From the NCBI RefSeq assembly GCF_017163755.1, contig NZ_JAFIWC010000032.1, positions 1-55,827 on the forward strand: a stretch of 55,827 nucleotides of DNA, read 5' to 3'. A model generated the notes under the pieces. That model had not been told where the DNA came from. It made no database searches and worked only from the letters and a program-made list of their open reading frames with translations. Positions within the stretch are counted from its first letter, which is position 1; every line of letters starts with the position of its first letter. The DNA is from Xanthomonas sp. GTDB lineage: Bacteria > Pseudomonadota > Gammaproteobacteria > Xanthomonadales > Xanthomonadaceae. A program made the position numbers and the translations under genes. Shown piece by piece: positions 32,920-55,827 of the stretch.

Positions 32920-34920
32920 CTACAGCGCCTTCGCCGCCTCGACCACGTGTTCGGCGGTGATCTTGAAGTGCTTGTACAGCACGTCCGCCGGCGCCGACGC
33001 GCCGAAGCTGTCGATACCCACCACCGCGCCGTCCAGGCCCACGTACTTGCGCCAGAACGCGGTGATGCCGGCTTCCACCGCCACGCGCTTGCGCACCGCC
33101 CTGGGCAGCACCGACTCCTGGTAGGCGGCGTCCTGGCGGTCGAACACGTCGGTGGACGGCATCGACACCACGCGGGTCTTCAGGCCGGCGGCGTCCAGCG
33201 CCTTCTTCGCTTCCACGGCCAGGCCCACTTCCGAGCCGGTGCCGATCAGGATCACGTCCGGCGCGCCGCCTTCGGCGTCGGCCAGCACGTAGCCGCCGCG
33301 CTCGATCTGCTTGATCTGCGCGTCGCTGCGCGGCTGGAACGGCAGGTTCTGGCGGCTGAACACCAGGCAGCTCGGGCCGTCGTTGCGGGTGATCGCGGCC
33401 TTCCAGCTCACCGCCGACTCCACCGTATCGCACGGGCGCCACACGTCGTTGTTGGGGATGTAGCGCAGCGAGGCCAGGTGCTCGACCGGCTGATGGGTCG
33501 GGCCGTCCTCGCCCAGGCCGATCGAATCGTGAGTGTAGACGTGGATCGCGTGCGCCGGGATCAGCGCGCTCATGCGCACGCCGTTGCGCGCGTAGTCGCT
33601 GAACACCAGGAAGGTGGCGTCGAACGGGATGAAGCCGCCGTGCAGCGCCAGGCCGTTGGCGATCGCGGTCATGCCGAACTCGCGCACGCCGTAGTACACG
33701 TAGTTCGCGTCCGGATCGTCCAGCGCGACCGACTTGCTGTTCTTCCACAGGGTCAGGTTGGAGTGCGCCAGGTCGGCCGAGCCGCCGATCAGTTCCGGCA
33801 GCAGCGGCGCGAACGCTTCGATCGCCATCTGCGAGGCCTTGCGCGAGGCGATGGTCTGGGCCTCGGCGGCCTGCTTGGCGATGTAGGCGTCGGCCTGGGC
33901 GATGAAGTCGGCCGGCAGCTCGCCGTGCGAGCGGCGGATCAGCTCGGCCGCCTCGTTCGGGTACTGCTTGGCGTACTTGTCGAAGGCCTGCTCCCACTCG
34001 GCCTGGCGCAGCGTGCCGGTGCCGCCGGCGCGCCAGCCGTCGTAGATCTCCTGCGGGATCTCGAACGGGCCGTACGGCCAGTCCAGCGCCTTGCGCGCGC
34101 CTTCCAGTTCTTCCTTGCCCAGCGGCGCGCCGTGCGAGGATTCCTTTCCGGCCTTGGTCGGCGCGCCGAAGCCGATGGTGGTGCGGCAGCAGATCAGGGT
34201 CGGCTTGTCGCCCTGCGCAATGGCGGCCTCGATCGCGGCCTTGATCGCGTTGGCGTCATGGCCGTCGACGTCGCGCACCACATGCCAGCCATAGGCCTCG
34301 AAGCGCGCCGGGGTGTTGTCGCTGAACCAGCCGGCGGTGTTGCCGTCGATGGAGATCTGGTTGTTGTCCCAGAACGCGACCAGCTTGCCCAGTCCCCAGG
34401 TGCCGGCCAGCGACGCGGCCTCGTGGGAGATGCCCTCCATCAGGCAGCCGTCGCCCATGAACACCCAGGTACGGTGGTCGACGATCTCGTGCTCGGGACG
34501 GTTGTAGCGCTGCGCCAGCAGCTTCTCGGCCAGCGCGAAACCCACCGCGTTGGCGAAGCCCTGGCCGAGCGGGCCGGTGGTGGTCTCCACCCCGGGGGTC
34601 TCGCTGTGCTCGGGGTGGCCGGCGGTCTTGCTGTGCAACTGGCGGAAATGCTTGAGCTCGTCCAACGGCAGGTCGTAGCCGGACAGGTGCAGCAGCGCGT
34701 ACTGCAGCATCGAGCCGTGGCCGTTGGACAGCACGAAGCGGTCGCGGTTGAACCACTTCGGGTTGTTCGGGTTGTGGCGCAGGAAATCGTTCCACAGCAC
34801 TTCGGCGATGTCGGCCATGCCCATCGGCATGCCGGGGTGGCCGGACTTGGCGGCCTCGACCGCGTCGGCGGCGAGGAAACGGATCGCATTGGCGAGCTGG
34901 CGGCGGGTAGGCGTCGTCAT
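32920..34920 (-). CDS. tkt: Transketolase
   Basis: 666 residues, the usual length. It transfers two-carbon units in the pentose phosphate pathway using thiamine diphosphate. The substrate-channel block is [20 protein letters not shown]. The cofactor and metal motif is [20 protein letters not shown], with NNQISIDG. The pyrimidine domain has [20 protein letters not shown]. The start at ATG 34920 fits the family N-terminus. It has its own terminator. A heptamer repeat cluster lies 72 bp upstream of the start, between this gene and the symporter gene. Confidence 0.97.
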
Positions 34921-34991
34921 AGGGCTTCTATTGGACCGGGAGCGGGCGCGGGGGCGTCGGGTTGGCTATTGTCCCACAGGCGGGGGAGCGC

Positions 34992-35019
34992 GGGACTCGG
35001 GACTCGGGACTCGGGACTC
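34992..35019 (+). repeat. Heptanucleotide tandem repeat (GGGACTC)x4
   Basis: Four perfect copies of GGGACTC in tandem between the symporter and tkt genes. An inverted set of the same unit lies 79 bp away at 35099-35126, so the two sets could pair as a 28-bp stem on a single strand. Confidence 0.9.
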
Positions 35020-35079
35020 GCAAGAGGCTAGCGGCCACACCCCTCTATCGCCGATCGCGTCCCGCAAATACCCAAACGA

Positions 35080-36411
35080 TTACGGGGCAGCGCTTCCCGA
35101 GTCCCGAGTCCCCAGTCCCGAGTCCCGCGCCCCCTCCTCCCCCTTCGCCACCAGCGTCGTCAACGCCAGATCCCCGGTCACGTTCAACGCCGTGCGGCAC
35201 ATGTCCAGGAAATGGTTGACGCCCAGGATCATGCCGATGCCGACCGGGTCCACCCCGACCATCGCGCAGATCAGCGCCACCACCGGCAGCGAGCCGGACG
35301 GCACGCCGGCGGTGCCGATGCCGCCGAGGATGCACACCAGCATCACCATGAACTGCTGGGCGATGCTCAGCTCCACGCCGAAGAACTGCGCCAGGAAGAT
35401 CACGGTGACGCCCTCGAACAGCGCGGTGCCGTTCTGGTTGGCGGTGGCGCCGACGGTCAGCACGAAGCGCGACACCTTGTTCGGCAGGCCCATCTCGTCG
35501 GCCACGCGCAGCGCGGTCGGCAGCGTGGCATTGCTGGAGGCGGTGGAGAACGCCATCACCGTGGCCTCGCGGGTGGCGCGGAAGAACGCCAGCGGCGAGC
35601 GCCCGGCGAACTTCACCGCCAGGCCGTAGGTCACCACCATGTGCAGGCCCAGCGCCAGCACCACCACGCCCACGTAGGCGCCCAGGCGGACCAGCAGCTC
35701 GAAGCCGAACAGCGCCGCCAGGTTGAACATGAAGCAGGCCACCGCGTACGGCGCCAGCCGGATCACCAGCCCGATCAGCGTCATCGAGATCTCGAAGATG
35801 CCTTCGATGCCGCGCCGCAGCGTGGCCACCTTGGCGTCGTCGCTGAGCACCATGCCCACGCCGAACATCACCGCGAAGAACATCAGCGACAGGATCGCGC
35901 CGTTGCTGGAGGCGGCGGCGACCACGTTGTCGGGCACGATCGACAGCAGCATGTCCATGCCGCGCGGCTGGCTCTTGCTCTGGTCGACGATCTGCGCGGT
36001 GCGCTCCACGTTCTGCTGCAGCAGCTCCTGCGCCAGCGCGCGGTCCACGCCCATGCCCGGCTTGAGCACGTTGACCAGCACCAGCCCCAGCAGCACCGCG
36101 ATGCCGGACAGCACCACGGTGTAGCCGAGCGTCTTCCAGCCGATCCGGCCCAGTGCGCGGATGTCGCCCATCTCGGAAATGCCCATCACCAGCGCCGAGA
36201 ACAGCAGCGGCACGATCAGCATGAAGATCAGGCTGAGGAACAGCTTGGAGAACGGCGTGGTTAGGTACTTGGTCAGCATCTGCACCCACGCCGCGTCGCC
36301 GCCGACGGTCAGGTGCGCGACCAGGCCGAACACCAGCCCGACGCCGAAGCCGATCGCCATCTTCCAGTGCAGAGGCATGCCGGCCTTGGCCTTCACGGGG
36401 GTGTCGGTCAT
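35080..36411 (-). CDS. Dicarboxylate/amino acid:cation symporter (GltP/DctA family)
   Basis: 443 residues, polytopic inner membrane. Family motifs include the serine-rich re-entrant loop AFSTASSNATLPTALRVADE, the NQNGTALFEG-type loop (VGATANQNGTALFEGVTVIF), and SLPVVALICAMVGVDPVGIG with NHFLDMCRTALNVTGD. It takes up glutamate, aspartate or C4-dicarboxylates with protons or sodium. The last 16 residues (ARDSGLGTRDSGSAAP) are encoded by an inverted copy of the GGGACTC heptamer array and are not family-like. The repeat has replaced or extended the original C-terminus. Start 36411 is MTDTPVKAKAG. Confidence 0.92.
   Translation of the reverse strand: MTDTPVKAKAGMPLHWKMAIGFGVGLVFGLVAHLTVGGDAAWVQMLTKYLTTPFSKLFLSLIFMLIVPLLFSALVMGISEMGDIRALGRIGWKTLGYTVVLSGIAVLLGLVLVNVLKPGMGVDRALAQELLQQNVERTAQIVDQSKSQPRGMDMLLSIVPDNVVAAASSNGAILSLMFFAVMFGVGMVLSDDAKVATLRRGIEGIFEISMTLIGLVIRLAPYAVACFMFNLAALFGFELLVRLGAYVGVVVLALGLHMVVTYGLAVKFAGRSPLAFFRATREATVMAFSTASSNATLPTALRVADEMGLPNKVSRFVLTVGATANQNGTALFEGVTVIFLAQFFGVELSIAQQFMVMLVCILGGIGTAGVPSGSLPVVALICAMVGVDPVGIGMILGVNHFLDMCRTALNVTGDLALTTLVAKGEEGARDSGLGTRDSGSAAP
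35099..35126 (-). repeat. Heptanucleotide repeat inside the symporter 3' coding end
   Basis: On the minus strand there are four tandem 7-mers, three GGGACTC and one GGGACTG. They are translated in frame as a G-L-G-T-R-D-S type period and sit just before the TAA stop of the symporter gene. Confidence 0.9.
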
Positions 36412-47937: not shown

Positions 47938-52473
<4,536 letters not shown>

Positions 52474-55714: not shown

Positions 55715-55756
55715 GGGACCGGGGACCGGGGACCGGGGACCGGGGACCGGGGACCG
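55715..55756 (+). repeat. Heptanucleotide tandem repeat (GGGACCG)x6
   Basis: Six perfect tandem copies of GGGACCG, upstream of the nucleoside hydrolase gene. The unit differs from the GGGACTC arrays at 35.0 kb and 51.7 kb by two bases; the mixed array at 51655-51682 contains both versions. Confidence 0.92.
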
Positions 55757-55827
55757 GGCAAGGATCTTTGGCCGCGATCGCCTGTCAAGCGCCTTTCGAA
55801 TTCATGCACATGGGCTTGACGCTGGAA

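Follow-up and report, generated by a model that had tools for sequence, protein, structure and literature searches.

Two inverted arrays of a G-rich heptamer, located between a symporter gene and the transketolase gene tkt in a 55,827-nucleotide stretch of Xanthomonas sp. DNA (contig NZ_JAFIWC010000032.1; hereafter the window), constitute one locus of the G-rich heptamer array family of Xanthomonas; they belong to the inverted-pair class of that family and use a lineage-specific unit, GGGACTC. Our preferred reading of their role, to which we give somewhat less than even confidence, is that of a REP-like element of gene 3' ends, which would work close to the stop codon, either as a stem in the RNA or as a quadruplex. 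No function was assigned to the family when it was described in 2015 (Rehm et al., 2015; PMC4692102); the distance from stop codons, the order of the arms and the way in which both arms change together now make it directly testable whether the arrays are a gene-3'-end device or a by-product of DNA replication. If they are a device, they would form a REP-like system of tandem quadruplex units, with GGGACTC as the dialect of one lineage.

The locus upstream of tkt

The sodium:dicarboxylate symporter gene (PF00375; ORF 36411-35080) and tkt (32920..34920, ATG at 34920) are both on the minus strand. The tkt-side array (34992..35019, plus strand) consists of four exact GGGACTC units and is C-rich on the sense (minus) strand. 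The inverted array (35099..35126, minus strand) has four units, including a variant that reads CAGTCCC on the plus strand, and provides the G-rich arm on the sense strand. The 79-bp spacer between them (35020..35098) contains the present symporter stop codon (35080-35082). Read along the sense strand, the locus runs from the symporter through the G-rich arm, the spacer in which the symporter now stops, the C-rich arm and a TGTGGGACAAT block (34968..34978, minus strand) to tkt. The pair and its position at the 3' end of the symporter gene, upstream of tkt, are as the first-pass annotation had described them, and its proposal that the arms can form a stem was borne out by folding: for the minus-strand transcript of 34985..35133 (149 nt), a stem of 20 + 15 bp with one mismatch was predicted, with an energy of -108 kcal/mol, compared with -68.4 for shuffled sequences (z -9.7). 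An Rfam scan of 34000-36000 gave sub-threshold matches only, with nothing above the gathering score.

The inverted array is part of the symporter reading frame, where it codes for most of the tail GARDSGLGTRDSGSAAP. The focal site thereby breaks the post-stop rule described below, as the G-rich array precedes the stop codon. In many other Xanthomonas, the last codon of the symporter gene is a TAG overlapping the first unit; an older symporter stop codon therefore seems to have been lost in the genome of the window. In the gap between the element and tkt, a TGGGA[CG]AAT block was retained in 72 of 77 parsed spacers. This block, the TGTGGGACAAT block of the window, is promoter-like by position only, with no sigma-70-type match; its retention suggests, without proving it, that tkt has its own promoter.

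A two-unit pattern (at most one mismatch) matched seven times in the window, compared with a mean of 0.04 in 100 shuffles, none of which reached seven. The same unit had been reported at 51.7 and 55.7 kb, which holds for the first site only. There, an array of ACTC, ACCG, ACTC and ACTC units (51655..51682, plus strand) begins 7 bp past the end of ORF 49092-51647 (stop codon 51645-51647), which is penicillin-binding-protein-like. The other site (55715..55758, plus strand) is made of six GGGACCG units and lies 21 bp upstream of the ATG of a nucleoside hydrolase gene on the minus strand (55693).

Distribution and placement of the arrays

In the whole genome, three GGGACTC units in tandem were matched 322 times (165 + 157), overlapping matches within longer arrays each being counted, and the reversed control gave no match on either strand. 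Among 60 genomes searched, the genome of the window included, 19 had a three-unit GGGACTC match and 36 had a match to the generic pattern (GGGANNN)3GGGA. Apart from the genome of the window, 19 genomes of the genus were covered, 17 of which carried 241-464 generic matches each, so that arrays were not absent or random in the genus at large; the remaining two (G002 and G016; 3.7 and 3.5 Mb) had five and one. In the 17 array-rich genomes, GGGACTC matches ranged from 0 (five genomes) to 252, which indicates that the unit is lineage-dependent and the family constant. The arrays are thus dispersed, as had been proposed. The further proposal that they are actively spreading was not supported, as pair positions are conserved in many Xanthomonas and the one spacer core tested was not repeated elsewhere, though a composite element (see below) occurs at 13 places. 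The tkt-locus pattern of that spacer core was found in none of 20 genomes of the genus, the own genome included; in eight other Xanthomonas genomes, five had one match (0-1 mismatch), always at the tkt locus, and three had none. The spacer core was therefore rejected as a dispersed element.

According to the available part of Rehm et al. (2015), two Xanthomonas genomes contain 186 and 183 arrays, with 70 and 75 convergent inverted pairs, four units and the first 50 bp past stop codons being preferred. Their repeats have at least two G-rich GGGANTN units, as do the focal arrays with four GGGACTC units each. Their search also called for at least one GGGAATC, which neither focal array contains; the units of the focal genome are GGGACTC, and also GGGACCG and GGGACCC. 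Orthologous sites carry GGGAATC, and we therefore read GGGACTC as a unit variant at a shared site rather than as another family. Elsewhere, the site C3:83954 of the genome of the window (G000) has arms of GGGACTC type and its counterpart in G006 has arms of GGGAATC type. In vitro, the GGGAATC unit forms a quadruplex (Rehm et al., 2015, available part). The same source describes GGGGA(T/C)T heptamers of Nostoc, which are likewise tandem, G-rich and quadruplex-capable, with the same sidedness towards ORFs, but which have few inverted pairs and a larger in-gene share than those of Xanthomonas.

Placement was analysed in 856 kb of the genome of the window (800 kb plus the window) and in the first 400 kb of contig 1 of four relatives, with genes called by a codon-score script rather than taken from an annotation. 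An array was counted if it had at least three G tracts, which gave 113 arrays (72, 9, 12, 11 and 9 per genome). Exactly four G tracts were present in 69 of the 113, in line with the four-unit preference of the published repeats, given that three tracts were needed to count. Only nine of the 113, the focal array at 35099-35126 among them, were inside a gene call; the intergenic bias that had been anticipated was therefore observed. In these samples, an arm has the approximate anatomy GCC-(GGGANNN)x4, followed in some copies by AAAGC, and the arms face inward. GCC was frequent before the arm (G 71%, C 59%, C 81%). Past the arm, 26 of 113 arrays had AAAGC or AAAAG within 16 nt, compared with 43 of 3660 random intergenic 16-mers.

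The outer side faced a stop codon for 56 of the 104 arrays outside gene calls. Two of these had no called gene on their inner side and were excluded. Of the 54 others, 51 began no more than 15 bp from the stop codon, with a few even overlapping it, and the median distance was 6 bp; random placement within the same spacers gave a mean of 6.8 such arrays and a maximum of 15 in 5000 trials. Over all 104 arrays outside gene calls, the share within 15 bp of a stop codon was about half. On the start-codon side, the median distance was 28 (30 arrays of the own genome). In the sampled genomes, the G-rich strand is the coding strand right after the stop codon, and the pair fills the gap from the 3' end of the gene to its neighbour. 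Arrays were present in two of 220 spacers of 90-400 bp between divergent genes, compared with 54 of 705 other spacers (Fisher p 6e-5).

Neighbouring arrays at most 300 bp apart were convergent ('+-') in 29 cases, '--' in two and never '-+'; a single '-+' pair was found, 438 bp apart. Convergence, intergenic location and closeness to gene ends are shared with the repeats of Rehm et al. (2015), as far as the available part of that paper describes them. By comparison with the same text, the distance to the stop codon is here resolved to a median of 6 bp, and the joint unit change in both arms and their exchange with the spacer, presented below, are additions. Three points look new, namely the stop distance at base resolution, a fuller count of how the arms are ordered, and the concerted change of the two arms and the spacer: apart from the paper of 2015 and from typing schemes based on loci of this kind, the titles and abstracts searched, among which few subscription journals were covered, contained none of them.

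Matching of the two arms

A complementary partner was found on the inner side, within 260 bp, for 83 of the 113 arrays, the cut-off being a score above the 98% point (10) of 112 outer-side control searches, one of which scored 20. In the 23 pairs sampled in the own genome, the sharing of unit type between arms was 0.56, compared with 0.35 after shuffling (none of 10000 shuffles as high). At the tkt locus, four of 80 loci could not be parsed. The set used consisted of 30 sequences (L031-L058, L062 and the window), 26 of which had at least two GGGA units per arm. The dominant unit type was the same in both arms in 22 of these 26, and none of 20000 shuffles reached the observed sharing, related species in the set meaning that the shuffles are not independent trials. 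The four sequences left out were those of X. bonasiae, where a pair is lacking, and of Leaf131, X. melonis and X. maliensis. In X. melonis and X. maliensis, GGGACCC-type arms are present but went unrecognised by the parser on one side. Neither L064 nor L103, two records named Xanthomonas outside the set, had an array with three G tracts in either arm, and none was found in the other parsed tkt loci (L060 and L063-L110). By symporter identity, the closest named records were X. bonasiae (96%), X. sp. F10 and X. sp. NCPPB 1128 (both 93%), in a listing that may omit the species of the window itself; the nearest named relative is thus one without a pair at this locus.

Unit changes involved both arms at other sites also: besides the C3:83954 site, G010 differed from G007 at one site and from G014 at one site, both arms having AAT-type units on one side of the comparison and ATT-type units on the other. 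At the tkt locus of L057, one arm has grown into a long GGGGATT run and the other arm is short, a strong case of one-arm slippage.

The spacer appeared to follow the arms. For flanking genes at least 94% identical, spacers were 47-64% identical when unit types differed and 68-99% identical when they were the same, with one exception at 45% (X. floridensis and X. cucurbitae). At equal gene identity, mean spacer identity was 0.645 within and 0.548 between types (276 pairs, 24 loci), with unit types assigned by hand (X. arboricola CFBP 7645 set as AT despite mixed arms) and spacers trimmed by rough motifs, the Leaf131 piece containing part of an arm. The plainest case is X. cissicola and X. euvesicatoria, in which the gene is 98% and the spacer 53% identical. 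Spacer identity being low where unit types differ, arms and spacer would tend to switch as one allele.

Mismatches between arms, scored on the sense strand, comprised 34 G-U and 38 A-C (p 0.72; the two arms of a pair can be counted twice), and selection on the arms at the RNA level was rejected on this negative wobble test. Arm lengths were uncorrelated (rho -0.11, 29 pairs). The lack of wobble bias and the unrelated arm lengths point to upkeep of arm identity at the DNA level.

Candidate roles and origins of the arrays

Stop-side arrays lie in 51 of 54 cases at the distance (less than 16 nt) at which REPs past a stop codon lower translation in E. coli, according to an earlier study cited in the available part of PMC12306157; a post-stop or 3'-end role is therefore the best reading. 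We infer it from position, and the mechanism and the upkeep are inferences too. In the transcript, beside the stop codon, the two arms would pair to give a long stem, or a quadruplex would form in the G-rich arm. The folded arms would then act like REP/BIME hairpins by blocking 3'-to-5' exonucleases, as a hairpin is reported to do in the gal operon (PMC11925234, available part), by holding the terminating ribosome, or both. Slippage would keep the units uniform inside an array, a DNA-level process would match the two arms, and arms and spacer would pass between strains as one allele. This role is favoured by the abundance over the control (322 against 0), the nearness to stop codons (51/54), the convergent order (29/31), the complementary partners (83/113), the rarity in divergent spacers (2/220 against 54/705), the shared unit types and the predicted stem (z -9.7). 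Published results also speak for it: the quadruplex formed by GGGAATC and the surplus of transcript starts and stops at quadruplex-capable repeats (Rehm et al., 2015, available part), and the translation effect of REPs near stop codons cited above. Against it stand the missing wobble bias, the unmatched arm lengths, the in-frame focal array, X. bonasiae without a pair, the one-arm expansion in L057, the restriction of exactly four tracts to 69 of 113 arrays, and the outcome of Rehm et al. (2015), who, in the available part of their paper, did not find a role in gene regulation. A stronger version, which we consider unlikely, would be that in Xanthomonas many quadruplex-capable heptamer stems serve as a standard brake on the ribosome or exonuclease about 6 nt past the stop, and that, with the heptamer drifting by lineage and the arms still matching, it is the shape and not the sequence that is read.

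REP, REPIN and BIME elements (PMC3686654, PMC12306157; available parts) likewise form many intergenic inverted pairs, partly near stop codons. In E. coli, 446 of 4072 REPs, or 260 of 496 in an earlier study, are close to stop codons (both cited in PMC12306157), shares whose denominators differ from that of the 51 of 54 found here, which covers only arrays facing a stop. REPs have a GTAG or GTGG head followed by a palindrome (PMC3686654), neither of which is present in heptamer units, and REP/REPIN repeats flank a RAYT gene, which the tandem heptamer arrays did not in the Y1_Tnp neighbourhoods sampled.

The lack of a wobble signature and of matched arm lengths would also be accounted for by a near-neutral structural repeat, in which slippage expands the heptamers, template switching copies the inverted arms, and selection only purges coding and promoter DNA, leaving gene 3' ends. 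Array length does vary within a species: in X. euvesicatoria, repeat numbers range over 5-12 at one 7-bp locus and over 6-18 at another (PMC8002079, available part). Template switching is known to homogenise the arms of inverted repeats (PMC8604942, available part). No match above the cut-off to the hairpin nuclease SbcD was found in 36 genomes of the bacterial family, array-rich or not, and its absence might allow long inverted repeats to persist. However, tolerance alone does not explain why 51 of 54 stop-side arrays are within 15 bp of the stop codon, nor the total lack of '-+' neighbours within 300 bp, and spacer inversion among species, the second mark of template switching, was not seen at the tkt locus. 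We therefore regard this explanation as possible but rather doubtful. SbcD was rejected as a factor separating array-rich from array-free genomes; G000-G035 contained a single weak match, in G023.

The position at gene ends and the rarity in divergent spacers would also suit a two-way transcription terminator or insulator between adjoining transcription units, as would the excess, relative to controls, of transcript starts and stops at quadruplex-capable repeats (Rehm et al., 2015, available part). The first-pass annotation had suggested that the element could end transcription. However, no intrinsic terminator (GC-rich hairpin followed directly by a T run) was found on either strand in 34700-35300, and array-bearing gene ends were not poorer in canonical terminators, as judged by a simple rule of unknown sensitivity: in spacers of 90-300 bp, these were present at 3 of 41 array ends compared with 18 of 414, and at 5 of 22 compared with 31 of 280; in longer spacers, at 3 of 8 compared with 28 of 217, and at 3 of 8 compared with 14 of 130. 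In all four comparisons, canonical terminators were commoner at array ends, none of the differences being significant. Substitution for terminators was therefore rejected, and termination or insulation, which we hold to be improbable, is a weaker reading than a post-stop or 3'-end role.

Mobilisation as a REPIN-like element by a RAYT transposase fails and is very improbable, even though the array-poor G002 and G016 are the only two genomes of the genus without a Y1_Tnp match and 13 places carry a composite element that ends in heptamer arrays: arrays were present in only one of 40 Y1_Tnp neighbourhoods fetched from the listed places (about 3 kb per side where the contig allowed; L188, about 2 kb away) and in neither of the two that came from the own genome, the units lack a GTAG/GTGG head and an inner palindrome while GTAG-type REPs co-occur in the same genomes, and arrays and Y1_Tnp occur apart elsewhere, arrays without Y1_Tnp in G032 (82% complete) and G046 and the converse in G021, G026, G028 and G031. 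G002 and G016, with nearly no arrays and no Y1_Tnp gene, are the smallest genomes of the genus, and both features may have gone with genome reduction.

The composite element is about 240 bp long and consists of a heptamer array, GGCAGGATGATGTCCC, a second hairpin and an inverted heptamer array; most copies also have, ahead of the inverted array, an inverted repeat resembling a terminator and a doublet of GTAG-type REPs. Eight loci were scanned, with no Rfam family above the gathering score. The 13 places in the genome of the window include L303, L304, L305, L309 and L134:17159, and the right-hand array is present in 10 of them; other copies are found in G007 (nine), G001 (five), G009 (three), and G011, G013 and G017 (one each).

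Several further observations were made on the distribution of the matches. Plasmids gave one short match among 72,556 records, and 13 stretches carrying three units were found in viral contigs. G034 had 46 forward and 350 reverse generic matches, G047 had 1190 matches plus 247 of the reversed control, and G057 had matches of the reversed control only (303). Array density was 9-12 per 400 kb in the first 400 kb of G007, G006, G014 and G010, compared with 72 in 856 kb of the genome of the window; this chromosomal region may be comparatively poor in arrays, or the latter genome may simply be richer. The symporter encoded by L082, a record with the title Bacillus subtilis, is 78% identical to the focal one; the assembly is probably mislabelled or contaminated. 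Finally, contigs C10, C11 and C48 of the genome of the window start or stop within GGGACTC arrays, which therefore probably break its assembly.
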